Below are positions 41,490 through 61,440 of a DNA stretch of 64,000 bases, piece by piece. Every line of letters begins with the position of its first letter. Positions within the stretch are counted from its first letter, which is position 1. Under the pieces are notes generated by a model, which saw only the letters and a program-made list of their open reading frames with translations, was not told the origin of the DNA and did no database searches. The translations under genes were made by a program, and so were the position numbers. The DNA comes from a virus: positions 1 to 64,000 of IMG/VR virus record IMGVR_UViG_3300033146_003076; one strand, 5' to 3'.

Positions 41490-41550
41490 CTAGTTAGTGT
41501 CAACTCCAAGTTCAAAAGGGCTTTGATTAGACTGTCCCCCTTGAAGATGA
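41490..41550 (-). promoter_or_regulatory. Dispersed element copy 1 with operator half-palindrome
   Basis: Minus strand: AAGGGGGACAGTCTAATC (41528-41545) followed by a diverged palindrome GAGTTGACACTAAC (41494-41508). It lies just downstream of the transglutaminase-like gene stop and upstream of the zinc-finger gene. First of ten same-direction copies found. Confidence 0.6.
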
Positions 41551-41554
41551 AATT

Positions 41555-41974
41555 TTACCAAATACCATTTCCAGTTTTATTGAATCTACTTTCTAAATGG
41601 TTCCATTTGTTGTTGTAAAAATATTCCAATGTGTCGTGCTTGTCTCCGTTTCCATCATATCCTCGGACTAACCTTGACCAAACTCCTTGTTTGTATAACA
41701 TGTATTGTTTTAACATTGCTTTATCTGTACAATCTCCTTTGAGTTCTTCCCAAGTAATATCTATTCCTCTTTGAAACCAATGAAATTCATACATAACAGA
41801 CATTTCTACCCACGATGATATTTGGTATACTTTTGCTTCTGTGTTGTTTCCTAATTTGCTAACAATATTATCTGAGAACATTTCTATTCTTGGATCATAT
41901 CCTTCAACAAACAATGGCATTAATAATAAAAAAAAGAAAAAAAGAGTAAAGGATTTGTATCTCTTACTTTTCAT
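41555..41974 (-). CDS. Secreted transglutaminase-like cysteine protease
   Basis: 140 residues from the ATG at 41974. Residues 1-23 are a signal peptide (LFFFFLLLMPLFVEG, then YDPR). The exported part has WEELKGDCTDKAMLKQYMLY, the Cys motif, and GDKHDTLEYFYNNKWNHLE, the His and following strand of the transglutaminase-like fold. A third acidic residue follows. This resembles secreted archaeal transglutaminase-core proteins and the catalytic part of pseudomurein endopeptidases, but has no binding repeats. It may cut the host envelope during lysis. Confidence 0.65.
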   Translation of the reverse strand: MKSKRYKSFTLFFFFLLLMPLFVEGYDPRIEMFSDNIVSKLGNNTEAKVYQISSWVEMSVMYEFHWFQRGIDITWEELKGDCTDKAMLKQYMLYKQGVWSRLVRGYDGNGDKHDTLEYFYNNKWNHLESRFNKTGNGIW

Positions 41975-41975
41975 C

Positions 41976-42425
41976 TTAATCTTTCCACGGATTAATTTCA
42001 CCTATACTACTTGCTAATTCTGTAGATTTAACTCCTGCTTGATCAGTGTATTCGTAGTTATAATCTTTTACCAATACTTCTGCTTCTGCTCCAATAAGAT
42101 TATCTGTTTCGATTCCATTCTCAGAGAATTCCCAACCTAAGTTTTTGAATACTTTTGTTGAGTTTGAGTTTGGTGTTAATGCTGTGTTATAAGTTCCATC
42201 TTCATTCTTATATTTGTAATATGTTTCGAATGCTAATGTTAAATATTCACCGTTTTCTTCTTTGTATGCTTCGTCCAATATACTAAACAACAATACTAAT
42301 TTATAACCAAATTTACTTTCTGTTTTCTTTGGTTTAATTTCGTTTAGTCTTGCTTTGTAGTACCCTTTCTTTGTGTACGGTCTTTTCATTTTCACAGCCA
42401 CTTTATCACTTACTTCTAATTTCAT
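41976..42425 (-). CDS. OB-fold-like protein, possible second SSB
   Basis: 149 residues, ATG at 42425 with GAGGT upstream. KGYYKARLNEIKPKKTESKFG, LVLLFSILDEAYKEENGEYL, and FKNLGWEFSENGIETDNLIG resemble the phage DUF669-type ssDNA-binding proteins (beta barrel with a K.S.KFGG-like loop). Acidic C-terminus. Position near the MCM gene fits replication. Not certain. Confidence 0.5.
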   Translation of the reverse strand: MKLEVSDKVAVKMKRPYTKKGYYKARLNEIKPKKTESKFGYKLVLLFSILDEAYKEENGEYLTLAFETYYKYKNEDGTYNTALTPNSNSTKVFKNLGWEFSENGIETDNLIGAEAEVLVKDYNYEYTDQAGVKSTELASSIGEINPWKD

Positions 42426-42501
42426 TTTCTATTTACCTCGTTTTATTTATTTTTTATTTATTATTTATTTATTTTGGCAATAATGGTAATTTAACCCAAT
42501 C

Positions 42502-42846
42502 TTATTTACCATAAACACTATTTTTTTCAACCAAATGTATTATTGAAACAGTTCCATGTGTTATACCTTTCCTTTTAAATTCCGTAGTTAATAAACCTTC
42601 CTCTTTTATCCACTTAATATCTCTATCAAATGTTTTTCTACAATGTGAATATCCTTTTGTTCTTAATCTTCTGTATAACCTTTCTTTTGAAATACCTTCT
42701 TCTACATGTTTCATAATTAGGTTTCTTCTCAGATCTAAACTATGTGTTGACGCTGGTTGTACTTCTACTAAAATATTTTGTTTCTTTAATATTGGCATTA
42801 TCTTTTTAAGTTCATCTGTTGAACATATTATTTTTATTTCTACCAT
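42502..42846 (-). CDS. Winged-HTH-like protein
   Basis: 114 residues, ATG at 42846. Residues about 40-90: RRNLIMKHVEEGISKERLYRRLRTKGY followed by RKTFDRDIKWIKEEGLLTTEF, a winged HTH pattern. Could regulate or participate in replication initiation next to MCM. Followed by a 75-nt non-coding stretch before the SSB-like gene. Confidence 0.55.
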   Translation of the reverse strand: MVEIKIICSTDELKKIMPILKKQNILVEVQPASTHSLDLRRNLIMKHVEEGISKERLYRRLRTKGYSHCRKTFDRDIKWIKEEGLLTTEFKRKGITHGTVSIIHLVEKNSVYGK

Positions 42847-42954
42847 TTTTCTTTACCTCTTATTTTTTTAATATTTTTATCGGACCAGATACGAAATCTA
42901 GAAATAGTACATTTGAGGTGAAATAAATCAAAATCACACCTGGTCTTTCGATAA
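42847..42954 (-). other. Intergenic region downstream of MCM
   Basis: 108 nt between the MCM stop and the next gene. Contains GACCAG/CTGGTC inverted repeat (42895-42900 with 42937-42942) and GAGGT-like sites. May hold a terminator or leader; no gene seen. Confidence 0.35.
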
Positions 42955-45783
42955 TTATATAGTTTTGTAAAATCCTGGTCTTGGTCTTATTATATCTCCT
43001 CTATGGACTAAAATATTAATTATCCCATCAAAATCTATTTCTTTTTCTCCTGTTAAGTTACTCCATTTCTCTAATACTTCTTCATGTGGACTTATTCCAA
43101 TTTCATTTTTACATGAGTCTATACATTCCCTTAATACATACATCTTATCTCTTTTCTTTTTAGGGACAATTTGTTCTATTGCATTAATATTTAATCTTCC
43201 ATCGGCAATATCATTAGTCATTATACCTTGTGCTTTAAATGATTCAACAAATATTTCTATTGCTTCTTCTGCGTCTTGTACTTCTATAATTTTACTTAAC
43301 CTTGATTTCGCACATGCTGTTGAAACTCTTATTATATTTGTAATTAATCTACTAGAAAAATATGCTTGTTCATCACCTGGATTTGCTGGTTTTGTTAATT
43401 TTATATATTCATTAGTTATATGTTTTATTGCTTCATTACTCATAACTGGTTTAACATAATTTTTAACATAAGCTAAATATTTTAATATTTTCTCATTGTT
43501 ATAATTAACATCAACCTCATCATCTTCATTATACTTATTGAATATTGTTTTGATTATTTTTCTTTGATGTTCTTCTGTTTCTATTGCATGCATTGGAAAT
43601 ACTAAATCAAACCTATCCATAAAGTCTTTAGGGAACCCAATTTGTTTCCATACTGCTTCATACTTATCAAAGACTCTATTAACTGGGTTTGCTGTTGCTA
43701 AAACTGTTGTTTCTGTTCTTATTATACTATGAATATTTGCTTTGTCAAATGGTACTTCTAAGTCCATTAATGCATTATTAAGTTTAGCCATATCATCTTT
43801 TTCTAATTTATCACATTCATCAAGAACAACTAAACTTCCTGTTGATAATGCTAACACCCCTGCTTCTAATACCCAACATCCTAATTCTTCATCTTTTGTT
43901 ATTGCCGCAACTAATCCAACTCCTGTTGTTGATGATCCACTAGATAATCTACTATTAGGCAGATAATGTAATGAACATTTTGCTAATTTTGTTTTACCAG
44001 AATTATGCGTGATTACACCATTATCTAAAATAAAATTATGGGTGTCCGGCACAATTAAGTCCCACATTTCTTTTTTTTCCTTGCTCTTGTATAATTGTGT
44101 AATTTTGCATGGCATGATTGACAAAGAATTGTTAAATTGTCCAGAACATTGTTTTTGTTGTTCCCATCTATGTGATGAATAACCAAGTCCATTTTTGTAT
44201 TGTTTTTTCCACAAGTGTGACAAATCCAGTACAAATATTCTTTTGCTATTTTTACATACTTTTTTCTGTTTTTGCTTAAACCCACGCTTAACCCATTTTT
44301 GTAAGCCGGATTTTTTTCTCCTTCTTTTCCTTTGAATTTGTATAAATTTTGAGAAATTCCTAAACTTACTTGTTCTTTGAAGGACCTCATAGGTATGCCC
44401 ATCATTTTTAACCTTCTTATTATTACATGATGATCGTGCCCCACTATTTTTCCTATTTGTGTTGCAGATAATTGTTTTTCTTGATATAACCTTTTTATTA
44501 AGTTTAAATCCAAATTTACCCACATATTGTTTTTTTCTAATGTTTGATCTCGTTGCATATTTTTCATCATTTTTAACCACCCTTAATAATAAATCTGTTA
44601 TTTTTAATTCATTTGTTTTTATTTCCATGATGATCTTATTTCTTATTACTATCCATATATGGTCTTTTGAACATTTTAATTCCTCTTTCTCTGTACAAAT
44701 AATATATACATCTTTTTGGCCTGTGCATTTCGGGATGCACATACTTTCAACTTTTTCAAATTTATCATTAATTGTTAAACAAGTTTTTGCTTCTGATATT
44801 TTTTTTAATCCATCTTTTGTTTGGATTAATTGGTCTTTTAACATACATCCTGGATTTCCACATATTAATACATGGATTAAACCTCTTTCTTCTAATTTAT
44901 TATTGATGTATAAATGTTCTCCACCAATTAGCTGTAAGAATAATGCTTTTTTAATTATATCATGTCCATAAATAGTTCCATAAATCTCTTGGATAATATT
45001 TTCTCTAAAGTTTGTTTGTGTTGACATTAACTTTATTTCTTCAATATCATCTTCAGATAATTTTACAGTTCCTATTCCTTCTTCAATCATTTCTATGTTA
45101 TTTGCTTCAACATATTTAATTTGATCTACACTATTATCTTTTCTTGGTTTTTCTTTTAATATTCCTGTAACTTTAATTTTTTTACTTGGTTGAACATTTT
45201 TATCTATGTTCTCATGACATAATGAACCTTTCAATGATATTAACATTGTTCGTGGTTTTTGTGCAGGGTCAATCATATTAATATCTTCTTCGATAACTAA
45301 CTTTTGTAAATCTTCTAAATCTCTTGTTGTTTCTTTGAATCTTGTTTTATTTCCACATTGACATATTTGTGGTTTTGTTATTTTTTCAGAGAGTTGTACG
45401 AGAGGTATTGTATTTCCACATGAAGGACAATCATAGTGTATTACTTTTGGGAAATGTGTAACTTCTGTTGTCTTTCTTATATATCCTGTTATAGATACTA
45501 ATTTTGAAACATCTTTTGCTCTTAGTTTCCAAATATCTTTATGTTCTGACTGTGGTATGTTTGTAAATCTGATAGAAGTATTTTTCTTTCCGGATATACC
45601 TTCGTATGCTATTTCACATACTTTAATTGCTTCTTCAAAATCATCTAAGATATAATCTCCTAGTTCTGGTGATACTTGGATAATTTTCCCAAAATCCACG
45701 TATAAAGAATTATTTATTATTACATTATCACTTTTATTAAAAAAGGTTTTTGCTGAATCGATTAGTTTTGCTATTTCACTCAT
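42955..45783 (-). CDS. mcm: MCM replicative helicase with intein
   Basis: 942 codons, ATG at 45783. Extein: N-terminal domain with zinc site CPSC (119-122) and CQC (141-143); AAA+ core with Walker A GNPG(309-312)|SGKT(595-598), split by the intein; Walker B VLDECDK near 653-659; sensor-1 TANP near 696-699; arginine-finger-like MDRFDLVF near 722-729; C-terminal winged helix. The spliced protein is 660 residues, a normal archaeal MCM. It should unwind the virus DNA. The intein covers residues 313-594. The Walker A here is GNPGSGKT rather than GDPGxAKS, so it is a diverged viral MCM. The next genes in the leftward direction are wHTH and SSB-like. Confidence 0.9.
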   Translation of the reverse strand: MSEIAKLIDSAKTFFNKSDNVIINNSLYVDFGKIIQVSPELGDYILDDFEEAIKVCEIAYEGISGKKNTSIRFTNIPQSEHKDIWKLRAKDVSKLVSITGYIRKTTEVTHFPKVIHYDCPSCGNTIPLVQLSEKITKPQICQCGNKTRFKETTRDLEDLQKLVIEEDINMIDPAQKPRTMLISLKGSLCHENIDKNVQPSKKIKVTGILKEKPRKDNSVDQIKYVEANNIEMIEEGIGTVKLSEDDIEEIKLMSTQTNFRENIIQEIYGTIYGHDIIKKALFLQLIGGEHLYINNKLEERGLIHVLICGNPGCMLKDQLIQTKDGLKKISEAKTCLTINDKFEKVESMCIPKCTGQKDVYIICTEKEELKCSKDHIWIVIRNKIIMEIKTNELKITDLLLRVVKNDEKYATRSNIRKKQYVGKFGFKLNKKVISRKTIICNTNRKNSGARSSCNNKKVKNDGHTYEVLQRTSKFRNFSKFIQIQRKRRRKKSGLQKWVKRGFKQKQKKVCKNSKRIFVLDLSHLWKKQYKNGLGYSSHRWEQQKQCSGQFNNSLSIMPCKITQLYKSKEKKEMWDLIVPDTHNFILDNGVITHNSGKTKLAKCSLHYLPNSRLSSGSSTTGVGLVAAITKDEELGCWVLEAGVLALSTGSLVVLDECDKLEKDDMAKLNNALMDLEVPFDKANIHSIIRTETTVLATANPVNRVFDKYEAVWKQIGFPKDFMDRFDLVFPMHAIETEEHQRKIIKTIFNKYNEDDEVDVNYNNEKILKYLAYVKNYVKPVMSNEAIKHITNEYIKLTKPANPGDEQAYFSSRLITNIIRVSTACAKSRLSKIIEVQDAEEAIEIFVESFKAQGIMTNDIADGRLNINAIEQIVPKKKRDKMYVLRECIDSCKNEIGISPHEEVLEKWSNLTGEKEIDFDGIINILVHRGDIIRPRPGFYKTI
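44002..44847 (-). mobile_element. Intein in the MCM Walker A loop
   Basis: 282 codons inserted between Gly312 and Ser595 of MCM. Block A begins with Cys (CMLKDQLIQTKDGLKKIS), block B is CSKDHIWIVI, and the C-terminal blocks read WDLIVPDTHNFILDNGVITHN followed by Ser+1. All residues for splicing are present: Cys1, block B His, penultimate His, terminal Asn and Ser+1. Walker A is a classic insertion site, so without splicing the helicase would be inactive. The middle 500 nt read as basic, non-conserved sequence in this frame but encode an HNH nuclease in another. Confidence 0.85.
44055..44570 (-). CDS. HNH endonuclease nested out of frame inside the intein
   Basis: 171 residues, ATG at 44570 (second ATG 44567), stop at 44055-44057, shifted by one base relative to MCM. 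N-terminal HTH (LSATQIGKIVGHDHHVIIRRL, residues 34-54) and an HNH core: CHTC at 117-120, VIHHIDGNNKNN at 130-141, DNLTILCQSCHAKLH at 144-158. GGTGGT lies 5 nt before the ATG, inside the intein reading frame, so it has its own ribosome binding site. It should make the double-strand cut that spreads the intein. The host frame is open over the full length too. Confidence 0.8.
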   Translation of the reverse strand: MMKNMQRDQTLEKNNMWVNLDLNLIKRLYQEKQLSATQIGKIVGHDHHVIIRRLKMMGIPMRSFKEQVSLGISQNLYKFKGKEGEKNPAYKNGLSVGLSKNRKKYVKIAKEYLYWICHTCGKNNTKMDLVIHHIDGNNKNNVLDNLTILCQSCHAKLHNYTRARKKKKCGT

Positions 45784-45789
45784 CTTTCT

Positions 45790-45915: not shown

Positions 45916-45930
45916 TTTACACCTCTTCTT

Positions 45931-46878: not shown

Positions 46879-46890
46879 TATATAAACCTT
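46879..46890 (-). promoter_or_regulatory. Leaderless-type TATA promoter
   Basis: Minus strand: AAAGGTTTATATACAGG, centre about 28 nt before the ATG at 46854. The AAAAGGTTTATATAC core matches the promoter at 63485. TTG at 46863 is an alternative start but would lie at the very start site. Confidence 0.65.
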
Positions 46891-47050
46891 TGTTTTACTT
46901 TTCAGTAGTTATCTAACAATCTCTAACTTCACAAGGAGAAAAGAATTAGACTGTCCCCCTTTGGATAAAGAAAATAAAGGAAAGGAAGATTTTAGTTTTC
47001 ATTTAAACGGAGATAAAAATGGATTGTTTCCTTCCCTTTATTTTTTGTGA
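46891..47050 (-). other. Gene-free 160-nt region with inverted repeat and element copy 2
   Basis: Contains, on the minus strand, AATAAAGGGAAGGAAA (47027-47045) pairing with CTTCCTTTCCTTTATT (46971-46988) as a long imperfect stem, and the dispersed element AAAGGGGGACAGTCTAATTC (46946-46965). Lies between the ATPase gene's stop and the PAPS-reductase promoter. Probable terminator plus regulatory site. Confidence 0.5.
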
Positions 47051-48085
47051 TTAAGATCGTCTGTTGATATTTACTGAATAGTTTCTTTGTTCTTCTGATA
47101 CTTTAAATAATTCTTCAATGAATAACATCTTTTTAATGAATCTTTCTGATGTCCTTATTGTGTTTACAATTCCTTTTTTAATTAAAATCTTTTTAAGTTC
47201 TGTTGTTGTTATATCTTTTGTTCCTATAAGAGAATGTAATAATACTCTCTCTCTACTTGATACTTTTAGTTCTGATTTTAATTCTTTCTTCCAGTCTAAA
47301 TCATTTTGTTTACAGAAGTTATATGTTTTGAATGCTTTGTATTGTGTTCTTAAGTTTATGTCGACACAAACTTCTTTTTTTATTAATTCAATTAAATGTT
47401 TTGTTACTTCTTTTTCAAATGTTTTTGTTGCTATTAGTCGCATTATATTTATTATTTCTTCTTTCGTGAAAAATACTTCAATATAATCCCCTCTTGATTG
47501 TAATGCGTTTAAGTCTTCTTGTAATCCCTTTATAGCTATTGCATTATAATCAAATATAAATTTACAATTACATTCAAACTTGTCTGGTAAATCTTCTTGA
47601 ACTTTTGAATAATTGTTTTTTGTTAATAAACATTTATCCTCACTTTCTGTTGCTGCTTTTAATAAGTTTAATGCATCTTGCATCTTTAACAATTTAACAA
47701 AATCTTTCAACCAGATAATCTTCCCATTATTTTCATACAATAATCTGTATAAATATGCTGATGAAATATCTCCAGATAATTCTACAAATTCTGCATTATC
47801 ATTATTTAATACTGTTCTTATTTGTTTACTTTTCCCAACGCCTGCAGTTCCTTTAACAAATAAAATTTTACTATATCCTTGAGTAACTTTCTTTATTGCA
47901 TTACCTAATTTATAATAATACTTTTTTGTTATTTCTTCTTCATTCATTTTTTTTCTTGCAAGGGTCTTGTTTTCCAAATATGTTAAGTCTGGGTTATACA
48001 ATTCCATTGGGTCTAAATCTGGTCTTAAATGTTTTAACCATTCAACGTAGTTATCATACGTTGTTATCTCTTTTTGTGTTATCAT
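47051..48085 (-). CDS. P-loop (AAA-type) ATPase with C-terminal HTH
   Basis: 344 residues, ATG at 48085. Walker A VKGTAGVGKSKQ at 78-88; a possible second motif KIIWLKDF near 127; CNCKFIFDYNA near 170 as sensor-like strand. C-terminal third (LKVSSRERVLLHSLIGTKDITTTELKKIL) looks like winged HTH. Layout is that of ORC/Cdc6- or DnaC-like initiators/loaders, which would cooperate with MCM. The acidic Walker B is not canonical, so ATP hydrolysis is uncertain. Confidence 0.65.
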   Translation of the reverse strand: MITQKEITTYDNYVEWLKHLRPDLDPMELYNPDLTYLENKTLARKKMNEEEITKKYYYKLGNAIKKVTQGYSKILFVKGTAGVGKSKQIRTVLNNDNAEFVELSGDISSAYLYRLLYENNGKIIWLKDFVKLLKMQDALNLLKAATESEDKCLLTKNNYSKVQEDLPDKFECNCKFIFDYNAIAIKGLQEDLNALQSRGDYIEVFFTKEEIINIMRLIATKTFEKEVTKHLIELIKKEVCVDINLRTQYKAFKTYNFCKQNDLDWKKELKSELKVSSRERVLLHSLIGTKDITTTELKKILIKKGIVNTIRTSERFIKKMLFIEELFKVSEEQRNYSVNINRRS

Positions 48086-48554
48086 TTTCTTCTTGCCCCA
48101 CTTCTAGTTCATAGTATTTTTTATTCTCTTCTACAAACTCTTTAACTTCTTTTATTACATTCTCTACTAAAGACACATATCTCACGCACTTATTATCTTT
48201 TTGTATAGATATGTAACCTTGATATTTTAACAGGTTTACTATTGCATAATACTGATGGTCATTTGACCCTAATTCTTTTTTTATTTCTTTTGCTGTTGTA
48301 AATCTTTTCTTCAATAATATACAAAACAATTTATATCTTTTTCTTGACGGTTTTATTCCTATCCTTTTCTTCATTAACCCTGATGGTATTTGTCCTGTTT
48401 TATGTATTCTTTCTAGTTCTGTTCTTACTATTTTCTTAATGTTTATTTCTGAAAACATTGCCACCATATCCCTTATTCCTGTTTTAAATATATATTTCCT
48501 TAATATTTCTTCAACTTTTTCTTCAATAATTATTTGTGTTTTCTCTTCTAACAT
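48054..48554 (-). CDS. Winged-HTH protein, unknown
   Basis: 166 residues, ATG at 48554. The middle (SRKRYKLFCILLKKRFTTAKEIKKELGSNDHQYYAIVNLLKYQGYI) is a good winged-helix pattern. Acidic tail. Overlaps the ATPase gene by 32 nt, so the two are translated together and may form an initiator pair. Confidence 0.6.
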   Translation of the reverse strand: MLEEKTQIIIEEKVEEILRKYIFKTGIRDMVAMFSEINIKKIVRTELERIHKTGQIPSGLMKKRIGIKPSRKRYKLFCILLKKRFTTAKEIKKELGSNDHQYYAIVNLLKYQGYISIQKDNKCVRYVSLVENVIKEVKEFVEENKKYYELEVGQEENDNTKRDNNV

Positions 48555-48710: not shown

Positions 48711-49172
48711 TCAATATTTGTGAGCATTATCCATATTATTTGTATGTTTGTTTAATGCATTCTCAATCTTTAAAATCATATCTATCACATCATCAATTCT
48801 TTTATTTGTTGAAACAAACATTTCTTCGGTAGATTCTTTTACTTTTTTTATTTTCATTATTCTATCCATATCTTTTGGTTCAATAATATGTCCTGTTGTT
48901 TGATGGTTTTCTTTTATTCCATTAGTGACTGCATCATTTGTTGATATTTCTGAATCAACCTTGAAATTTTTATTTATAAATTTATCACTTCCCCCCACTA
49001 AACTAACTCTTGCAAGTTCTAAACCATTATATGCTCCTTGCCCATAATCATCTTTAGAACCACATTCTAATTGTATTTGTTTTAAATCTTTTAGTGCCAT
49101 TTCAATCGTTTGTTTTACTATTCCTGAAAATATGTCACTTCTTTTTACTTTTTTTAATTCTTCTTCATCCAT
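48711..49172 (-). CDS. Hypothetical protein, unknown
   Basis: 153 residues, ATG at 49172 with AAGGAGG upstream. Helical start (KVKRSDIFSGIVKQTIEMAL), a Gly-rich middle (GQGAYNGLELARVSLVGGS) and a long helical end. Its ribosome binding site follows element copy 3. No family recognised. Confidence 0.5.
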   Translation of the reverse strand: MDEEELKKVKRSDIFSGIVKQTIEMALKDLKQIQLECGSKDDYGQGAYNGLELARVSLVGGSDKFINKNFKVDSEISTNDAVTNGIKENHQTTGHIIEPKDMDRIMKIKKVKESTEEMFVSTNKRIDDVIDMILKIENALNKHTNNMDNAHKY

Positions 49173-49704
49173 TTTTCTTTTCCTCCTTAACCGGTTCAGC
49201 AGAGATTAGTGCGTCCCCTTTATCTTCTTTAAAATTAGCATAATATGTTTTCATTATTTCTGTTGTTTCTTTGATTGCGTTTAATTCGTTAATTAAATCT
49301 TTACACAAGTCCATTACTTCAATAATATATAAATTTATTGTTTCCAGTGTTGCCTCTGGTTCGTTATGTTTTCTTCCTTCATTAGTGTGTTTAATCTTAT
49401 TAATATAATTATAAATCTCTATTAACCTTACACTATTCTTACCATACTTTTCAAGAACCATATCTTGGGATATAATATTATTGGTTATTAATTCAATCAT
49501 CTTGTTATACTTTTGTTTATTCTTTTCTTCTTTACTGATAACAATAATCCTTTCATCAAATAATGTTCCTATCTCTCCTTTTAGTATAACTTTAGATGGT
49601 GGATAATTTAATGGATTGTCTATTCTACAAAAACAATCATTATCCAAATATAATTTTATATCTTTCTCGTCAATATACTTTAATTTAACTTCTTCTTCTC
49701 CCAT
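49165..49704 (-). CDS. Hypothetical protein carrying element in its 3' end
   Basis: 179 residues, ATG at 49704. Acidic start, long helical centre, and a C-terminal KGDALISAEPVKEE that is encoded by the dispersed element AAAGGGGACGCACTAATC. Because the same DNA occurs as non-coding elsewhere, the tail sequence probably reflects the element rather than the protein. Function unknown. Confidence 0.5.
   Translation of the reverse strand: MGEEEVKLKYIDEKDIKLYLDNDCFCRIDNPLNYPPSKVILKGEIGTLFDERIIVISKEEKNKQKYNKMIELITNNIISQDMVLEKYGKNSVRLIEIYNYINKIKHTNEGRKHNEPEATLETINLYIIEVMDLCKDLINELNAIKETTEIMKTYYANFKEDKGDALISAEPVKEEKKNG
49200..49222 (-). promoter_or_regulatory. Dispersed element copy 3
   Basis: Minus-strand AAAGGGGACGCACTAATC inside the 3' end of the 49165-49704 gene, about 35 nt upstream of the next gene's AAGGAGG and ATG. 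No palindrome follows here. Confidence 0.55.
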
Positions 49705-49715: not shown

Positions 49716-50300
49716 CTAATGTTTATTAAAACAAACATTTCCTTTCTTCATACAATATTTACATTCAATACATGTTAACCCTTTTGTTTGATTAAGACAT
49801 TGCACAAACTTTTTTGGTAAAGGATCTTGTTTAAGTTTCATTTTAGATACTCCATCAAATTGTTTATATTTAGTTTTCCATATTCCTTTATCATCACTAA
49901 TGTATAATGTAAAGTTCTTAGGTCTTTTTACTTTGATGTCTACATTTTTAGTGTATGTGTAAAAGATTATGTCTGGGAATGTTTTACATATCTTAACCCA
50001 TTTATCAAAATATTCTTGACTATAAAATTCTCCACATGTGTGTATTCTAAAATATTTTATGTTTTGTTTTTTTATTAGTTTACTTATTTCTTCCACAAAA
50101 TCTTTTCTTCTTGATGCTCTTAGATTATTATTAAGGAAAGGTGTCTGTGCAGGATATAATCTTTTAAACTTATTATAGTAACAGTGTTTAAGGCATCCTT
50201 GTTCTTTACATCCTTTAATCTTTTTGCATATTGTGTTGTTAATATTAAATGATACTATCTTTGTTTTACTATTTGGTGGACTTAACTTTAGTTGATTCAT
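49716..50300 (-). CDS. Gp88-like protein
   Basis: 195 residues from the ATG at 50300 with GAGGT upstream. Follows the phage Gp88 pattern: NSKTKIVSFNINNTICKKIKGCKEQGCLKHCYY (Cys cluster then CYY), later RIHTCGEFYSQEYFDKWVKI and IIFYTYTKN, ending with Cys-rich CLNQTKGLTCIECKYCM. The clusters suggest an Fe-S or zinc protein. The family is common in phages; its function is unknown to me. Upstream lies an operator palindrome. Confidence 0.7.
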   Translation of the reverse strand: MNQLKLSPPNSKTKIVSFNINNTICKKIKGCKEQGCLKHCYYNKFKRLYPAQTPFLNNNLRASRRKDFVEEISKLIKKQNIKYFRIHTCGEFYSQEYFDKWVKICKTFPDIIFYTYTKNVDIKVKRPKNFTLYISDDKGIWKTKYKQFDGVSKMKLKQDPLPKKFVQCLNQTKGLTCIECKYCMKKGNVCFNKH

Positions 50301-50331
50301 TATCTTTACCTCTTGTTTAAAAAATAAAATG

Positions 50332-50349
50332 GTTGGTGTTGCCACCAAC
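50332..50349 (-). promoter_or_regulatory. Operator-like palindrome
   Basis: GTTGGTGTTGCCACCAAC, close to the consensus palindrome, 32 nt upstream of the ATG at 50300 and 15 nt after the stop of the upstream gene. No obvious TATA box in the 40 nt upstream, so it may act on read-through RNA or on a weak promoter. Confidence 0.55.
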
Positions 50350-51535: not shown

Positions 51536-51790
51536 TTAATCTGTTATTATTGCTAATTCTTCTCCAAGAATACTTCCAATAATTATACATTTTTTATTTT
51601 CTATTTCTCCAAAATCTTTTTTATATCTGTCCGCAGAAGCAAATATATTTACATTCTCTTTAAGCAATTTTATGATTTCAAACAGGTTTGTTTTATTATT
51701 TTCTATTATAAAACAATCTTTCTCTGAGTCATATCTTGCATTTTTTAACATTTCAATTATTTCATTTTTAGTAAATCTTTTCTCACTCAT
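51536..51790 (-). CDS. Small hypothetical protein
   Basis: 84 residues from the ATG at 51790 with GAGGT upstream; a longer open frame to 51874 is element sequence, not coding. Pattern EKRFTKNEIIEMLKNARYD, CFIIENNKTNLFEIIKLLKE; alpha/beta. Function unknown. Confidence 0.5.
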   Translation of the reverse strand: MSEKRFTKNEIIEMLKNARYDSEKDCFIIENNKTNLFEIIKLLKENVNIFASADRYKKDFGEIENKKCIIIGSILGEELAIITD

Positions 51791-51809
51791 TGTTGTTACC
51801 TCATTCAAT

Positions 51810-51842
51810 TTGGTGTTATCACTAACGATTAGTGCGTCCCCT
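51810..51842 (-). promoter_or_regulatory. Dispersed element copy 4 with diverged palindrome
   Basis: Minus strand AAAGGGGACGCACTAATC followed directly by GTTAGTGATAACACCA, a diverged member of the palindrome family, then GAGGT and the ATG at 51790. Same order of parts as the copies at 58.6, 59.4 and 60.6 kb. Confidence 0.6.
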
Positions 51843-51977
51843 TTACTTCTCATGTTCAGGGTATTTGTCTGCACTTCTAATATATCTTAACATTCTATCA
51901 TGTTTAGTTTCTAAGTTTAATTCTCCTAACATTCTTATTTCCCATTCTGGCAATTCACTTAATGGTGGTCTTTCCAT
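51843..51977 (-). CDS. Mini-protein, 44 residues
   Basis: ATG at 51977 behind GGAGGGGG, chosen over a longer frame. RPPLSELPEWEIRMLGELNL then basic helix and KYPEHEK at the end. Stop lies at the edge of element copy 4. Unknown. Confidence 0.5.
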   Translation of the reverse strand: MERPPLSELPEWEIRMLGELNLETKHDRMLRYIRSADKYPEHEK

Positions 51978-53613: not shown

Positions 53614-54135
53614 TTATTCCTCCTTCACATTATCTTTTTCATATTTCTTATTAGATGGTAATTTGTTTAATTTATATTCTGATAATAAATTTTCTCCATC
53701 ATAATTACAATATGATTCAAATTTCATTTTGTCTAAATCAATAACATAATAATATTCACAGAACAATGTGTCTTTAATAAATTCAGATGAATCAACCATT
53801 ATTCCAATATCTCCATTCATATATTCTGTGATTTCTCCTTGCAGGTTTCTTAATAATTGATAATACGTATTAATCTTTATGTTATCCATGCTACCTCCAA
53901 CAGCAGTGTTTGCATATTTAGAATATTTTTTTATATGTTCTTTTGTTGGTTTAGATTCTTCATCTTTAATCAACTCAATATTATTTATGTTTTCTTTTAC
54001 ATCTTTCCAATCAATCATTTTTCTTAATTCTTCAAGAATATTTATTCCTAATCCTTCCGGATATGAATCGTAATGATTATACATACCAAAAAACTTTTCA
54101 TTAACTTTAAAACATACGCATCCTCTTGTTCCCAT
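53614..54135 (-). CDS. Conserved phage protein (MGTRG family)
   Basis: 173 residues, ATG at 54135 with GGAGGT upstream. MGTRGCVCFKVNEKFFGMYNHYDSYPEGLG matches a phage family recognised by MGTRG...YNHYDSYPxGLG. The family is widespread but uncharacterised; the HxD-type Tyr/His motif hints at enzymatic or nucleotide-binding roles. Confidence 0.65.
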   Translation of the reverse strand: MGTRGCVCFKVNEKFFGMYNHYDSYPEGLGINILEELRKMIDWKDVKENINNIELIKDEESKPTKEHIKKYSKYANTAVGGSMDNIKINTYYQLLRNLQGEITEYMNGDIGIMVDSSEFIKDTLFCEYYYVIDLDKMKFESYCNYDGENLLSEYKLNKLPSNKKYEKDNVKEE

Positions 54136-54183: not shown

Positions 54184-54228
54184 AGAAATTAGACTGTCCT
54201 CTTTCTTTACTTTGTGTTGACTCTAACT
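54184..54228 (-). promoter_or_regulatory. Dispersed element copy 5 with half operator
   Basis: Minus strand AAAGAGGACAGTCTAATTTC (54188-54207); upstream of it, AGAGTCAACACAAA is a half-site of the palindrome family. The element is one of the more diverged (GAGG for GGGG). It lies between the mini-gene at 54229 and the MGTRG gene. Confidence 0.5.
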
Positions 54229-55216: not shown

Positions 55217-55627
55217 TTTTTTTATTACCTATATCTATTTATATCTTCTCTTTTTCTTTGGCGTCAACTTGGCCCTTTTACGCACACTTCAGAAATAATG
55301 GTTTTTGAAACCTTTTACAAAAGGGTCAACTTGGCCCTTTTACGCACACTTGTTTGCTCTTTTTTCTTTAATCTCTAACTCAACTCTTCTTTTTTTGTTA
55401 TTACTAAGAAAAGACTACACTTATAAATATAGGGTATATATATATATATATAAATATATTAATATAGTTATATATATACTGTGTTGTGCGTAATGGCACC
55501 ACTTTGGCCCTTTTGTAAAAGTATAGGTAAACAGTTTTTTCCAAAGTGTGCGTAATTACCCTTTTTTAGTGCCAAAGAATTAAAGGTCTTTTTAGAACTT
55601 TTTTTGTAAAGTTTGTGTTAACATTAA
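55217..55627. other. Gene-free repeat region, candidate replication origin
   Basis: 411 nt without a gene. Two identical 27-nt direct repeats (55263-55289, 55325-55351) contain TTACGCACACTT; opposite-orientation copies (AAGTGTGCGTAA at 55544-55555, TGTGCGTAA at 55485-55493) lie to the right. CTTTTACAAAAGGG at 55312-55325 pairs with CCCTTTTGTAAAAG at 55508-55521. Between them is an alternating TA tract, about 55434-55477, as an easily melted core. Symmetric binding repeats around an A+T core is the design of archaeal origins. No gene flips strand here, so the role is inferred from structure only. Confidence 0.6.
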
Positions 55628-55628
55628 C
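55611..55628 (-). promoter_or_regulatory. Operator-like palindrome next to origin region
   Basis: GTTTGTGTTAACATTAAC, a member of the palindrome family, directly downstream of the mini-gene at 55628 and just right of the origin-like repeats. It may coordinate transcription with replication. Confidence 0.5.
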
Positions 55629-56695: not shown

Positions 56696-56815
56696 TTATT
56701 GCCCCCTCCCTTCGTAAACTTCTTTTAAAAACTCATCATATTTTATCCAAAATTTACATTCTTTTTTAACAGAACATAAATTACAATCTTCTTTTTCTAA
56801 ATATTCACATTTCAT
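56696..56815 (-). CDS. Mini Cys-rich protein, 39 residues
   Basis: ATG at 56815 behind GGAGGA, TAA at 56696-56698. CEYLEKEDCNLCSVKKEC has four Cys in about 18 residues, a tight zinc or Fe-S cluster pattern. First gene after element copy 6. Confidence 0.55.
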   Translation of the reverse strand: MKCEYLEKEDCNLCSVKKECKFWIKYDEFLKEVYEGRGQ

Positions 56816-56835
56816 CTTTTCCTCCTTAACTCTCT

Positions 56836-56862
56836 CAAGCAGTGATTAGTGCGACCCCCTTT
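56836..56862 (-). promoter_or_regulatory. Dispersed element copy 6
   Basis: Minus strand AAAGGGGGTCGCACTAATCA, upstream of the Cys-rich mini-gene and 15 nt downstream of the previous gene's stop. No palindrome follows; instead CTGCTTGAGAGAG leads to GGAGGA. Confidence 0.55.
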
Positions 56863-56877
56863 GTATTAAAGGGATTG

Positions 56878-57207: not shown

Positions 57208-57208
57208 T

Positions 57209-57400: not shown

Positions 57401-57413
57401 TTTATTTTACCTC

Positions 57414-57584: not shown

Positions 57585-57596
57585 TTTATTTTACCT

Positions 57597-57971: not shown

Positions 57972-57972
57972 T

Positions 57973-58272
57973 TTAATTACCTCTAAATTGTTTTATTATT
58001 TTATTTATTGCATACCTTTGTGAATCTATGATCCTTGTGCTTAAAGGGTCTGTAAAATCAAGATAACAATTCCTTTTCTTAATATACATCATTTGGTTAT
58101 AGTCTTTGTTAAATCCCCCTGGTGCGTTTAAGTATCCATCCATATCTATGTTAATTGTTTCTATTGTCTTTCTTCCATGTCTGTTTGTTATTAGTATTTG
58201 TTTTGTTTCTGTGTTTAATTCTGCTGTTTGGTTGTTATCTCTTACAGATTTGTTTGTTTCTTTAATCATCAT
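57973..58272 (-). CDS. Small hypothetical protein
   Basis: 99 residues, ATG at 58272 with GAGGTG upstream. TKQILITNRHGRKTIETINI, GGFNKDYNQMMYIKKRNCYL, and DFTDPLSTRIIDSQRYAINK. Beta-rich start, helical end. Unknown role; ends 1 nt from the interrupted gene. Confidence 0.5.
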   Translation of the reverse strand: MMIKETNKSVRDNNQTAELNTETKQILITNRHGRKTIETINIDMDGYLNAPGGFNKDYNQMMYIKKRNCYLDFTDPLSTRIIDSQRYAINKIIKQFRGN

Positions 58273-58273
58273 T

Positions 58274-58555
58274 TTAATTCACCTCAAAATTAAACTCTGT
58301 AATTAAGATCATGTTTCTTCTATCGTATAAAAAATATAAATCTAAATCTATAAGAAAATTTCCTTCATTTTTTATTTCCACTACAATTTCATAATCGCTG
58401 GGGAAATAATCATCCTCTGCATAACTTTTAAAACTTAAATCTATTTTTGCTTCTGAAAAAAGTTCTTTTAGTTTTCTTTTAATATCTTTTAAATCATTAA
58501 ATCTCATTCCTTCCATCATTGAAAAAAATATATCCATGTTGTTTATGTGCATCAT
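58274..58555 (-). CDS. Small hypothetical protein behind element copy 7
   Basis: 93 residues, ATG at 58555 with AAAGGAGG upstream. Helical N-terminus (FNDLKDIKRKLKELFSEAKI), then beta (IVVEIKNEGNFLIDLDLYFLYD). First gene after a full element plus palindrome, so probably under that control. Function unknown. Confidence 0.5.
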   Translation of the reverse strand: MMHINNMDIFFSMMEGMRFNDLKDIKRKLKELFSEAKIDLSFKSYAEDDYFPSDYEIVVEIKNEGNFLIDLDLYFLYDRRNMILITEFNFEVN

Positions 58556-58573
58556 TTTCTTTTCCTCCTTTGA

Positions 58574-58610
58574 GTTGGTGTTGACACCAACGATTAGTCT
58601 GTCCCCTTTA
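58574..58610 (-). promoter_or_regulatory. Dispersed element copy 7 with perfect operator
   Basis: Minus strand AAAGGGGACAGACTAATC (58592-58609) directly followed by GTTGGTGTCAACACCAAC (58574-58591), then CTCAAAGGAGG and the ATG at 58555. The palindrome is perfect (9+9). The element touches the stop codon of the upstream gene. Confidence 0.7.
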
Positions 58611-59021
58611 ATTATCTTCTTCCATACATTTCAAATAATCTTTTTTTGCTTTTTTAAAGGACTGTAAATATTTCTCTTTTAATTCTTCTTCTGTTATCCC
58701 TATTGCTTCTAGTGTTTCATCAATATCATAAGTAATACAATATTCATGGTTAGCTAATTCATATCTAAACATTTGAAATTGATATTCTTTATCTTTCCTT
58801 AGTTCTTCTTCTCTTTTGTGTTGTTTCTCCATTAGTTCTGAATAGTCTTTTTCATTTTCCTTTTTAATAAATCCACAATAACCTATTGTTACTATTTCTT
58901 TTTTTGTGCAATTAAATTTCTTTAATCCTTCGTTCATTTGTTCTTCTGAGAATGCAAAGAATATTGGAAATTCATTTATTTCTTTTTGCACTAATTCTTG
59001 ATTCATAATATATTTATTCAT
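58608..59021 (-). CDS. Conserved phage protein (FAFSxEQ type)
   Basis: 137 residues, ATG at 59021 with GGAGC upstream. FPIFFAFSEEQMNEGLKKFN, GYCGFIKKEN and a helical EEL-rich middle with MFRYELANHEYCITYDIDETLEAIGI; this pattern occurs in phage proteins of unknown function. Very charged. Role not known. Confidence 0.6.
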   Translation of the reverse strand: MNKYIMNQELVQKEINEFPIFFAFSEEQMNEGLKKFNCTKKEIVTIGYCGFIKKENEKDYSELMEKQHKREEELRKDKEYQFQMFRYELANHEYCITYDIDETLEAIGITEEELKEKYLQSFKKAKKDYLKCMEEDN

Positions 59022-59034
59022 TTTATTAGCTCCT

Positions 59035-59379
59035 TTATTTTATTAATAAACCTTTTTGATATAATTTTTGTCTTTTTATTCTTGTTTCTTGTGATGCCTT
59101 AACTTGTGTTTCCCTATCATAATATATCATACTGCCACCTCTTTCTTTTCTTCTTAATAGGTTTTGTTCATGTTTATCTGGATCACCTATCCATCTAATT
59201 AAACTTCTTGATACATTAAATCTTTTTGCTAATTTTCTTTGCGATATTTCTCCATACAATCTCTTTATCATTTTTCTATCTTCTAAAGATAATTTAACCC
59301 TTTTATCTTTATTTCTGGGTATTTTAAGATGTGTGTATTCACTTTTATAAGGCATATTACTCACGCTCCATTTATTCAT
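59035..59379 (-). CDS. HTH DNA-binding protein
   Basis: 114 residues from the ATG at 59379; a longer frame to 59448 runs through element copy 8 and is discarded. KLSLEDRKMIKRLYGEISQRKLAKRFNVSRSLIRWIGDP (residues about 29-66) is a resolvase/sigma-like helix-turn-helix with basic flanks. It stands directly behind a full element plus palindrome, so an autoregulated repressor of this operator family is a sensible hypothesis. Confidence 0.6.
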   Translation of the reverse strand: MNKWSVSNMPYKSEYTHLKIPRNKDKRVKLSLEDRKMIKRLYGEISQRKLAKRFNVSRSLIRWIGDPDKHEQNLLRRKERGGSMIYYDRETQVKASQETRIKRQKLYQKGLLIK

Positions 59380-59391
59380 TTTCCCCTTTGA

Positions 59392-59428
59392 GTTGGTGTT
59401 GACACCAACGATTAGTCTGTCCCCTTTA
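59392..59428 (-). promoter_or_regulatory. Dispersed element copy 8 with operator
   Basis: Minus strand AAAGGGGACAGACTAATC followed by GTTGGTGTCAACACCAAC and CTCAAAGGGG before the ATG at 59379. Identical to copy 7 over more than 36 nt, evidence that the module was copied as a unit. Confidence 0.7.
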
Positions 59429-59830
59429 TTATAAAAGGTCTTGTTCACGAAAGGAATAATATTCTTCTTTAGTTACTATAATATGATCTATTAGTTTAAT
59501 ATCTATTATTTCTCCTGCTTCCTTAATTTTCTTTGTAACTTCTTTATCTTGTGTTGATGGTTTGTTATTTCCGCTTGGGTGGTTGTGAGCCATTATTATT
59601 GCGTTACAGCTCATTGTTATTGCTTTCTTAAATATTTCTCTTGGTGCAATAATTGTGGCGTTAAGAGTACCTATTGCCACGATTTCTCTATATATTGGGT
59701 TGTTTGCTGTGTTTAATCCTATTACTATCACAAACTCCCTATCTTCTTCTTCAAATTCTCTTAGATATTTCTTTAAGATCTTTGGTGAATTTATTTTTTT
59801 GTTTGTTTCTATTTCTTTTAACAGTTTCAT
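59429..59830 (-). CDS. RadC-like JAB-domain protein
   Basis: 133 residues, ATG at 59830. The JAB/MPN core is clear: GTLNATIIAPREIFKKAI, AHNHPSGNNKPS (82-92), D95, AGEIIDIKLIDHIIV and EYYSFRE. This metal-protease-like fold is found in RadC/YeeS-type proteins of mobile elements and phages. It lacks the N-terminal HhH region of full RadC. Function in phage biology unknown to me; anti-defence or ubiquitin-like processing are open. Confidence 0.85.
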   Translation of the reverse strand: MKLLKEIETNKKINSPKILKKYLREFEEEDREFVIVIGLNTANNPIYREIVAIGTLNATIIAPREIFKKAITMSCNAIIMAHNHPSGNNKPSTQDKEVTKKIKEAGEIIDIKLIDHIIVTKEEYYSFREQDLL

Positions 59831-59831
59831 T

Positions 59832-59984
59832 TTATCCCATATATGAGTTTTTTACTTCGTACAATTCTTTTACTTCATACTTCTTATAAATTAATTCTAA
59901 TTGGTAATCTATAACTGCGTCTGTTTCTTGTTCTTCCATTCCTGGTTCAACTTTATTTAATATTTCTAATATCTGTTCCAACAT
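59832..59984 (-). CDS. Small acidic protein, 50 residues
   Basis: ATG at 59984 with GAGGG upstream. LEQILEILNKVEPGMEEQET then a helix with Tyr/Lys/Glu (LIYKKYEVKELYEV). Ends 1 nt before the RadC-like gene. Unknown. Confidence 0.5.
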   Translation of the reverse strand: MLEQILEILNKVEPGMEEQETDAVIDYQLELIYKKYEVKELYEVKNSYMG

Positions 59985-59994
59985 TTTCTTTCCC

Positions 59995-60171
59995 TCAATA
60001 TTCAAAAAATACATTATTTCCCATTTGGAAGTCGTATTCTTTATTATTTAAATTGGGTAATTTCCAGTTAAATGTTTCTCCTTTACAGTGCAAATTTATT
60101 CCTTCTACTAAATAAGGGTATTTTTTATTTTTTGACCTAATAGTCATTTTCTTTATAATCCAATGTTTCAT
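59995..60171 (-). CDS. Mini-protein, 58 residues
   Basis: ATG at 60171 with GGAGGA upstream, TGA at 59995-59997. Basic start (KHWIIKKMTIRSKNKKYPYL), then beta (GETFNWKLPNLNNKEYDFQM). Unknown. Confidence 0.5.
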   Translation of the reverse strand: MKHWIIKKMTIRSKNKKYPYLVEGINLHCKGETFNWKLPNLNNKEYDFQMGNNVFFEY

Positions 60172-60184
60172 TTTGTTTTCCTCC

Positions 60185-60565
60185 TTATTCTAATACAACT
60201 CTTTCATGTTTACACCAAGAATCTTTTTGAAATTCCTCAAAATCTTTGTAGGTTATTCCTTTTGTTCCTTTAAATCTATCAAATGTTTCTTCAATATGTT
60301 TTAATTTTGGGTTTTCAATTTGTTCAAACCTTTGAGATCCCTTTCCTGTTTCTATTGTTGGTTTACAAACACTGGCAAAATCAATTCCAAAGAAGTATCC
60401 TATTTGAATGTATGCAATTTGGTTCTTCTTATTTAGTACATGAACCCAAGAATAGTCTTTTGTTACTGGGATATATACTTTATATCCATTTTCTATTAAT
60501 ACTTTGACATATTTTTTTAATGTTTCTTTATCTCTTCCCTTAAAATTTAAATCTTTTTGTTTCAT
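60185..60565 (-). CDS. Hypothetical protein behind element copy 9
   Basis: 126 residues, ATG at 60565 with AAAGGTGA upstream. Alpha/beta: KETLKKYVKVLIENGYKVYI, WVHVLNKKNQIAYIQIGYFF, then a region with TGKGSQRFEQIENPKLKHIE. Similar proteins occur in other phages. First gene after element plus palindrome. Function unknown. Confidence 0.55.
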   Translation of the reverse strand: MKQKDLNFKGRDKETLKKYVKVLIENGYKVYIPVTKDYSWVHVLNKKNQIAYIQIGYFFGIDFASVCKPTIETGKGSQRFEQIENPKLKHIEETFDRFKGTKGITYKDFEEFQKDSWCKHERVVLE

Positions 60566-60579
60566 TTTATCACCTTTGA

Positions 60580-60616
60580 GTTGGTGTCAACACCAACAAT
60601 TAGTTTGTCCCCTTTT
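60580..60616 (-). promoter_or_regulatory. Dispersed element copy 9 with operator
   Basis: Minus strand AAAGGGGACAAACTAATT followed by GTTGGTGTTGACACCAAC (60580-60597), then CTCAAAGGTGA and ATG at 60565. Compared with copies 7 and 8 the palindrome centre is inverted (TG for CA), showing that the centre is not fixed. Confidence 0.7.
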
Positions 60617-60705
60617 TATTTGTTAAAGGATTGTGAATTTCTTGTTCCTTCAAGAGTATCACATAAGGGTGTGTAGTGTTCCATTAATATTATCATATCT
60701 TTCAT
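60616..60705 (-). CDS. Mini-protein, 29 residues
   Basis: ATG at 60705 with GAGGT upstream, TAA at 60616-60618, ending at element copy 9. KDMIILMEHYTPLCDTLEGT. Low information; accepted because of the ribosome binding site and packing. Confidence 0.4.
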   Translation of the reverse strand: MKDMIILMEHYTPLCDTLEGTRNSQSFNK

Positions 60706-60722
60706 TTTCTTTTACCTCTTTT

Positions 60723-60881
60723 TTATTTTCTCGAAGTTCCTATCAAAACTCCTACTAATGCTCCATTTACCATACATCCTACTAAAGGTATGTAATCTGT
60801 GTAATCCGCCCCAAATTGTATCATTGAGTTACCTATAATCACTATTGTTATGCCTATTAATAATTTTATATTTTGGTTCAT
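60723..60881 (-). CDS. Small two-helix membrane protein (holin-like size)
   Basis: 52 residues, ATG at 60881 with GAGGT upstream, TAA at 60723-60725. Two hydrophobic segments (LLIGITIVIIGNSMI and PLVGCMVNGALVGVLIG) joined by FGADYTDYI. Size and two segments resemble class II holins, but no lysis gene is adjacent. Overlaps the next gene by 4 nt (ATGA). Confidence 0.5.
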   Translation of the reverse strand: MNQNIKLLIGITIVIIGNSMIQFGADYTDYIPLVGCMVNGALVGVLIGTSRK

Positions 60882-61021
60882 TTTCTTTTACCTCTCATTA
60901 ATTTTTCGTAATCATTATTTTTATCGCATAAGATCTTTAATCTTGATGCTAACATTTCTTCTCCTGCTTCTGGGTATCTTTCTGCGATCCATTTTGCTTT
61001 CCTTAAAAATGCTTTATTCAT
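60878..61021 (-). CDS. Mini-protein, 47 residues, helical
   Basis: ATG at 61021, TGA at 60878-60880, ATGA overlaps on both sides. NKAFLRKAKWIAERYPEAGE then LASRLKILCDKNNDYEKLMR. Helical; possible DNA-binding. Part of a translation-coupled chain of three mini-genes. Confidence 0.5.
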   Translation of the reverse strand: MNKAFLRKAKWIAERYPEAGEEMLASRLKILCDKNNDYEKLMRGKRK

Positions 61022-61134
61022 TTTCTGTTTGATTCTGGGTTTTTCCCAGAATTTAATCTGTTGTTATAAGTTGGATTAACAACTTTAAACATCAATTTAC
61101 TTATGTTATCTAAATATTCTTTTTTGTATTTCAT
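61018..61134 (-). CDS. Mini-protein, 38 residues
   Basis: ATG at 61134, TGA at 61018-61020, ATGA overlap with the next. KYKKEYLDNISKLMFKVVNP then NNRLNSGKNPESNRK. Its 3' end contains a perfect hairpin (61032-61052). Start of the coupled chain. Confidence 0.45.
   Translation of the reverse strand: MKYKKEYLDNISKLMFKVVNPTYNNRLNSGKNPESNRK
61032..61052 (-). repeat. Perfect hairpin, iteron-like
   Basis: ATTCTGGG/CCCAGAAT with a 5-nt T-rich loop, inside the end of the 61018-61134 gene. The ATTCTGGG arm is the start of the iteron-like motif that recurs at 61151, 61321 and, inverted, at 63603. Confidence 0.6.
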
Positions 61135-61440
61135 TTTCTTTTCCTCTTTGATTCTGGGTTAATCCCCTAATCTTATCTTCATTTGGTTGTGTCAACACCA
61201 TCCACTTTAAACTTAAAGTTAATGTTGACACCAACTCTAGTGATTAGTGCGTCCCCTTTAATCTGTTAAAAAAAATAGTTCCTTCAGTTAGGGGTTAAGA
61301 AGGAACTTAGAATAAGTGTGATTCTGGGTTAATCCCTTAATAGCCTGCAGGTATTCACCTGAATATTATTATGGGATTATTCCCTAATTTGTTTAAGTTG
61401 GAGTTAATGTCAACACCAACTCTTAAAAGGAGGTGTTTGG
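61135..61440. promoter_or_regulatory. Gene-free control region with element copy 10, operators and iterons
   Basis: Holds two ATTCTGGGTTAATCCC motifs (61151, 61321) and a variant ATTATGGGATTATTCCC (61368); operator palindromes at about 61184-61203, 61218-61235 and 61404-61421; element AAAGGGGACGCACTAATC at 61241-61260 (minus strand). This is the densest cluster of regulatory repeats in the window. It stands at the upstream end of the long leftward operon and could serve as its main control region. Confidence 0.6.
61266..61307 (-). terminator. Hairpin followed by T-run (intrinsic-type terminator)
   Basis: Minus strand: AGTTCCTTC ... GAAGGAACT (61277-61285 with 61299-61307) followed by TATTTTTTTTAAC. 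Nine-base-pair stem plus T8 is an intrinsic-type terminator. It would stop RNA coming from the upstream K/N-rich genes before element copy 10. Confidence 0.6.

Follow-up and report, generated by a model that had tools for sequence, protein, structure and literature searches.

The IMG/VR virus record IMGVR_UViG_3300033146_003076 (78,863 bp), of which bases 1-64,000 make up the window analysed here, carries a real and highly significant two-part regulatory repeat. One part is a directional 17-nt element, AAAGGGGACnnnCTAAT (hereafter the 17-mer), present in ten copies; the other is an 18-bp dyad with the consensus GTTNRTGTYRACAYNAAC, present at 22 sites. Judging from the sequence, the mechanism of this repeat is most likely transcriptional, and we tentatively favour an operator- or stoperator-like control of transcription over internal promoters lacking a TATA box and over elements acting in RNA leaders. 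Such a two-part layout is known from some bacterial viruses but, as far as we found, has not been described in this form for archaeal ones.

All ten 17-mers lie on the minus strand between 41.5 and 61.3 kb, and the element is absent from the rest of the record. Six copies match AAAGGGGACnnnCTAAT exactly, three have one mismatch and one has two, while shuffled sequences gave an expectation of 0.37 matches at up to two mismatches, with a maximum of two. A weight matrix built from the ten copies and applied to the complete record, both strands included, scored them at 24.4-29.3 bits, the next site reaching only 13.0 bits, and detected none in the plus-strand structural genes (1-27 kb and 64.6-78.9 kb). 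A previous sequence-only reading had listed these minus-strand copies, all of which were recovered within 5 nt of its positions, with the variable bases AGA, AGT, GCA and AAA that we also observe; the element, however, is 17 nt long rather than 16. The consensus scan of the whole record which that reading had proposed returned these copies only, on a single strand, with no equal occurrence on both strands or within genes elsewhere.

Essentially intergenic placement is seen for nine of the ten 17-mers but for only 12% of random positions (P about 6e-8), and a start codon follows 25-60 nt downstream of eight copies, compared with 8% of positions (P about 7e-8; gene starts are our own calls). Gaps carrying a 17-mer have a median length of 73.5 nt, compared with 10 nt for other gaps. 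As noticed earlier, spacing narrows towards the start of the operon, with successive distances of 5.4, 2.3, 2.6, 2.4, 2.7, 1.7, 0.8, 1.2 and 0.6 kb. The claim that each copy shortly precedes the ribosome-binding site of the next gene holds for seven of them, which have a Shine-Dalgarno-bearing gene 29-52 nt downstream (29-37 nt to the ATG in six copies), the Shine-Dalgarno being separate from the element. These seven junction copies are found at 49205..49221 (AAAGGGGACGCACTAAT, 32 nt before the ATG at 49172), 51828..51844 (AAAGGGGACGCACTAAT, 37 nt before the ATG at 51790), 54188..54204 (AAAGAGGACAGTCTAAT, 52 nt before the ATG at 54135), 56845..56861 (AAGGGGGTCGCACTAAT, 29 nt before the ATG at 56815), 58593..58609 (AAAGGGGACAGACTAAT, 37 nt before the ATG at 58555), 59411..59427 (AAAGGGGACAGACTAAT, 31 nt before the ATG at 59379) and 60599..60615 (AAAGGGGACAAACTAAT, 33 nt before the ATG at 60565). 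The claim fails for the other three, which have no close Shine-Dalgarno and precede TATA-like boxes located 25-58 nt downstream: 41526..41542 (AAGGGGGACAGTCTAAT, 46 nt upstream of the TATA-like TTTAAATA), 46945..46961 (AAGGGGGACAGTCTAAT, 58 nt upstream of the AAAGGTTTATATAC promoter at 46886, which serves a PAPS-reductase gene) and 61243..61259 (AAAGGGGACGCACTAAT, upstream of the TTTAAGTT box at 61217). The 80 nt that follow each of the seven junction copies contain no TATA-like box, and none is enriched at any fixed offset from the 17-mers, in agreement with the earlier remark that the element is not itself a TATA box.

The conserved block begins sharply at the element. The 34 nt upstream show no similarity among copies, while two kinds of leader can be told apart in the 34 nt downstream, namely a dyad type (58593, 59411, 60599, 51828 and 61243) and a type of the form CTGCT..GTTAAGGAGG (type B; 49205 and 56845). 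As the proteins flanking the 17-mers are not paralogues of one another either, the 17-mer appears to be kept for its own sake. Moreover, the copy at 49205 lies within the 3' end of the open reading frame (ORF) 49165-49704, where it codes for the protein tail as previously observed, yet keeps its distance to the next ATG, suggesting that placement follows the downstream gene. An additional AAAGGGGAC nonamer occurs at 64041-64057 of the record; it lacks CTAAT and is followed by GTCCC, so that a hairpin is possible.

The second part of the repeat had been overlooked by the sequence-only reading: GTTGGTGTYRACACCAAC stands directly behind several 17-mers. A symmetric matrix applied to the whole record retrieved 22 dyads at 17-32 bits, with the next site at 12.8 bits and about 0.1 expected above 16 bits. 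Thirteen are intergenic and nine lie inside genes, in both early and late regions, including promoters and junctions. Seven of the ten 17-mers have a dyad within 15 nt, and four at exactly 1 nt, while the chance expectation (from 22 sites in 78.9 kb) is about 0.2 of ten. The exact neighbours are 58574..58591 (GTTGGTGTTGACACCAAC), 59392..59409, 60580..60597 and the degenerate dyad 51809..51826, which was scored as intergenic since the likely start of the ORF at this place lies downstream of the listed one. The dyad at 54210..54227 lies 5 nt upstream of its 17-mer, and that at 41493..41510 lies 15 nt downstream of the 17-mer at 41526, between it and the TTTAAATA box at 41479.

Five dyads flank TATA-like boxes, which are scarce on the minus strand (about 0.5-0.7 per kb). 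In addition to the dyad at 41493, one (34319..34336) starts 24 nt after the minus-strand TTTATATA at 34360, that is, at the expected start site; another (38608..38625) lies 19 nt upstream of the minus-strand TTTATATA at 38588; and two (61218..61235 and 61185..61202) stand on the upstream and downstream sides of TTTAAGTT at 61217. The 17-mer at 61243 directly follows a hairpin, GTTCCTTC..GAAGGAAC, and a run of eight T residues (T8), suggesting that this place may be the start of the early operon. The other dyads are at operon junctions or inside genes. One occurs alone in the gap before a GP88-like gene (50332..50349), one at the start of an intergenic stretch with a TATA box at 55454 (55611..55628), one 30 nt before the late ORF 14136 (14089..14106) and one within a structured noncoding stretch (61403..61420). 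Further sites lie within the late ORFs 6918-7295 (7050..7067), 16219-16701 (16324..16341) and 21393-25229 (21840..21857), within the ORFs 30536-31039 (30740..30757) and 47051-48085 (47354..47371), and within the MCM gene 42955-45783 (45014..45031), and two are found beyond the window, at 73151 and 74418 of the record.

The dyad looks like a protein site in duplex DNA rather than an RNA hairpin, because its halves vary independently. All seven dyad pairs are kept in 10 of the 22 sites when G-U pairs are counted, and in four when they are not, and at the two positions that vary, pairing of the arms does not clearly exceed that of shuffled arms (P 0.06 and 0.88). Folding of the ten 17-mer leaders revealed no common structure; in several, a 7-bp hairpin is possible immediately ahead of the Shine-Dalgarno, but type-B leaders have none.

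Relatives of the virus support the dyad. The closest one found, G001 (IMGVR_UViG_3300009320_000019, 56.6 kb; capsid 56%, portal 45%, terminase 36%, MCM 40%), contains seven of the 25 sites detected among relatives with the window matrix, against 1.4 expected overall, although the number of independent dyads is smaller because some relatives share orthologous sites. As a control, 41 contigs from other MCM-bearing viruses yielded 6 dyads against 5 expected. In database searches, the dyad pattern occurs in 87 IMG/VR contigs, with a single site in each. The exact 17-mer pattern has 12 single matches in IMG/VR, without common context, which we took as chance, and one match in the genome collection, on a bacterial contig (about 0.2 expected by chance).

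Compared with known systems, the repeat shares its layout with L5, cluster K, HF2 and HGTV-1 but falls under the full definition of none; we would class it as an archaeal-virus variant of phage-type intergenic control repeats. In L5 (cluster A), operators at promoters and stoperators in intergenic gaps, more than twenty sites in all, are oriented along transcription, and the repressor binds as a monomer to one asymmetric 13-bp site (PMC9283540). Similarly, the sites described here are short, occur at promoters and in short intergenic gaps and are scattered genome-wide (22 dyads); their orientation follows transcription (10/10 17-mers on the transcribed strand), and the 17-mer is found both at seven junctions and at three putative promoters, before TATA-like boxes. 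Thus, the stoperator likeness suggested by the sequence-only reading is borne out in its anatomy (one orientation along transcription, short gaps, promoter and internal copies), all the better once the dyad is included, and that interpretation is partly supported. Unlike the more than twenty asymmetric sites of L5, there are only ten 17-mers, confined to 41.5-61.3 kb, and the count of 22 holds for the symmetric dyad. The present system instead pairs an asymmetric 17-mer with a symmetric 18-bp dyad, in an archaeal virus for which we can propose candidate repressors only.

The start-associated sequences (SAS) and extended SAS (ESAS) of cluster K form an asymmetric repeat that runs one way and is confined to non-structural genes, about half of the copies being joined by an inverted repeat (PMC3203893, PMC11373665), and ESAS carry putative promoters (PMC11373665). 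Here too, the repeat has one orientation, is limited to non-structural genes and occupies junctions with gaps over 50 bp, and an inverted repeat adjoins the asymmetric one (within 15 nt in 7/10). However, SAS overlap the Shine-Dalgarno, 3-9 nt before the start, whereas the 17-mer lies 29-52 nt before it, with a separate Shine-Dalgarno; and ESAS repeats stay with SAS, whereas the dyad also occurs alone genome-wide. HF2, likewise an archaeal tailed virus, has intergenic repeats of ~50-60 bp in its early-middle region, with conserved blocks in native orientation and one class per region. Its class I repeats, whose promoter activity is proven, have a TATA box at -26 (PMC8707807); no TATA-like box is present in the junction cassettes of the 17-mer. 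Finally, a TATA-like motif with an inverted repeat precedes many HGTV-1 genes, and T4-type phages have PeSL (promoter early stem-loop) cassettes (PMC3950731); both resemble our case in that a cassette with an inverted repeat is repeated before many genes of one genome arm. PeSL differ in bearing a bacterial early promoter, and the HGTV-1 upstream regions that we examined contain a normal BRE (transcription factor B recognition element)/TATA box, which the junction cassettes of the 17-mer lack.

Under the operator/stoperator-like reading, the ten 17-mers and 22 dyads would together make up a single system by which an archaeal tailed virus controls transcription. A dimeric repressor, probably encoded by the virus, would bind the dyad in duplex DNA and, where the dyad lies at a promoter, block the start of transcription. 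Inside transcription units, and together with the directional 17-mer at the junctions of the early operon, the dyad would halt or slow the polymerase, or block re-initiation, whenever the repressor is present. The 17-mer, acting for the downstream gene, would be bound in a directional manner either by this repressor or by another factor. The number, orientation, position and pairing of the sites, their presence at likely promoters and internal junctions, and the enrichment of the dyad in relatives speak for this reading, and from them we infer the binding of a protein, its identity and its effect on the polymerase. A more specific version, in which stoperators act genome-wide through a symmetric repressor site spread across early and late genes, and a 17-bp directional partner renders the block polar at ten junctions of the early region, is doubtful.

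Several observations weigh against this reading. The earlier note had proposed a scan of related genomes; the 17-mer was found neither in G001, of whose early region about 8 kb is covered, nor in 23 fragmentary relatives represented mostly by late-region sequence. As some four 17-mers would be expected in these 8 kb at the density of the window, its absence from G001 is only moderately informative. Regarding the dyad, several of the relatives' sites are one orthologous site counted twice, the matrix iterated on relatives drifted and became degenerate (it was not used), and discovery from scratch in G001 gave nothing convincing above shuffles, the dyads there being found only with the window matrix. 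Moreover, L5 stoperators are asymmetric sites for a monomeric repressor, while in this virus the asymmetric site occurs just ten times, in the early region, and it is the symmetric site that is widespread. The proteins scanned include no recognisable integrase or clear repressor, and the nine dyads inside genes make a role in segregation or packaging possible.

Such a role leads to another explanation, in which the scattered dyads serve partition (centromere-like) or replication, and the 17-mers, standing next to them by chance, are unrelated regulatory elements. The genome-wide scatter of dyads, including late coding regions, and the cluster of three at 61.2-61.4 kb beside the structured noncoding region would fit; nevertheless, four dyads exactly 1 nt from 17-mers and five flanking TATA-like boxes, with no ParA/ParB recognised among the proteins scanned, make it quite improbable. 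A stronger rival, although still unlikely in our view, is a promoter function: through the 17-mer, a TATA-less core or upstream promoter element peculiar to this virus, a viral activator would bring the host polymerase to internal genes of an early-middle class, with the dyad as the operator. Restriction to non-structural genes, a single orientation, a position 29-52 nt before starts and the larger gaps at 17-mer junctions (the medians given above) are all compatible with promoters. Similarly, the proven promoters of HF2 class I have an equal layout (PMC8707807), cluster K ESAS join inverted repeats with putative promoters (PMC11373665), and a new promoter would be needed at 61243, as this copy follows the hairpin and T8. 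However, the seven junction copies have no TATA-like box within them or in the 80 nt downstream, nor any enriched at some offset, while the virus does use TTTATATA promoters and the motifs of HF2 and HGTV-1 contain a TATA box. At 46945, a second promoter would even be redundant, given the normal TATA promoter 58 nt downstream.

Alternatively, the 17-mer might work like a start-associated sequence at the mRNA level: located 30 nt ahead of the start codon, it would serve for processing, for stabilising the transcript or for binding a translational regulator. Its directional and intercistronic character, the 29-37 nt to the ATG in six copies and the possible 7-bp hairpin before the Shine-Dalgarno in several leaders would agree with this. 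Yet the three copies preceding TATA-like boxes would fall outside the leader, type-B leaders lack the hairpin, dyads also occur in late and coding regions with RNA pairing no better than in shuffled halves, the genome contains no antisense partner, and Rfam has no match at the sites, so that we consider this explanation improbable. Among RNA-level candidates, we also rejected an antisense RNA target (no complementary transcript besides the sites' own antisense), a known RNA family (none at 17-mer sites) and an intrinsic terminator (no U-tract after any 17-mer). The letters GGGGAC.CACTA of the 17-mer resemble promoters of single-subunit polymerases; a T7-like promoter was nevertheless rejected, as the sites are early only and no single-subunit RNA polymerase was recognised among the proteins scanned with Pfam and PHROGs, a part of the ORF set that includes most of the largest ORFs. 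Finally, it is very improbable that the 17-mer is a remnant or copy of the end of a transposon or REP (repetitive extragenic palindromic) element spread by transposition. One verrucomicrobial genome does carry 16 copies of AAAGGGGACATTCTAATC at the ends of a multicopy element, but distinct verrucomicrobial matches (2) are not above the reversed-pattern control (4), a stricter related pattern adds nothing, a plasmid match lies inside istA and not at an insertion sequence end, and ten insertions in a single orientation at gene junctions would be unexpected from transposition. The verrucomicrobial AAAGGGGACATTCTAATC element has tandem terminal repeats and TGTCAAC ends, in a layout like that of the virus cassette which is not above chance.

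If the operator/stoperator-like reading is correct, two proteins are candidate regulators. A 114-aa helix-turn-helix (HTH) protein is encoded on the minus strand at 59035..59379, directly behind a complete cassette of 17-mer and dyad (59411), and could regulate itself. It has a weak Pfam HTH_38 match (on the longer ORF), and its AlphaFold2 (AF2) model shows a helical core at residues 32-79 (best blocks at pLDDT 77-88, mean 64.6). Homologues annotated as HTH, with 46-49% identity, are found in Rhodobacter phages, which constitutes a cross-domain gene link for a protein of an archaeal virus. One Rhodobacter phage carrying such a homologue has neither the 17-mer nor the dyad. The other candidate is a 166-aa winged-helix protein (48054..48554, minus strand), which is TrmB-like below the Pfam cut-off and has a weak MecI match.

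The record as a whole reads as that of an archaeal tailed virus. Plus-strand genes encode tailed-virus proteins (HK97-type major capsid protein, large terminase, portal and tail proteins) and occupy 1-27 kb and 64.6-78.9 kb, while the minus-strand arm at 27-64 kb contains replication and accessory genes, encoding PAPS reductase, RNA ligase, DHH phosphoesterase, RadC and an MCM helicase with an intein at the Walker A motif (42955..45783, minus strand), an archaeal marker. TATA boxes of the form AAAGGTTTATATAC are followed by an ATG at +29 to +33, suggesting leaderless transcripts. A tRNA match at 66061-66169 of the record has a 49-nt insert in its anticodon region, probably an archaeal tRNA intron. 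MCM, the TATA boxes and this long-insert tRNA together point to an archaeal host; a search of the genome collection for proviruses and the host with the portal protein gave no match. Other features were noted in the early arm. Iteron-like TTCTGGTATNATCCC repeats, direct and inverted, at 63502-63699 lie beside a TATA promoter at 63492 and may form a replication origin. Repeated hairpins, GATTCTGGGTT-AACCCAGAATC, whose sequence is unlike the dyad, occur at 61030-61388 before small early genes. The minus-strand noncoding stretch 61264-61563 has a fold more stable than shuffles (z -3.76), contains a dyad and ends in the hairpin with T8; it is possibly a structured noncoding RNA or a terminator region before the early operon. 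Lastly, 49716-50348 encodes a GP88-family protein (Pfam PF17338), whose phage homologues are mostly in mycobacteriophages, which include stoperator phages; this link may be a coincidence.

To our knowledge, the timing of gene expression by archaeal viruses is poorly known, and programmed blocking of the polymerase inside archaeal operons has hardly been described. If confirmed, genome-wide stoperators acting on an archaeal (Pol II-like) polymerase would be an elongation-control network of a kind not previously described in archaeal viruses. The 22 operator-like dyads and their ten directional partners, with a dyad common to relatives, provide defined DNA targets for finding the regulator, and allow asking whether stoperator-type control arose outside mycobacteriophages.

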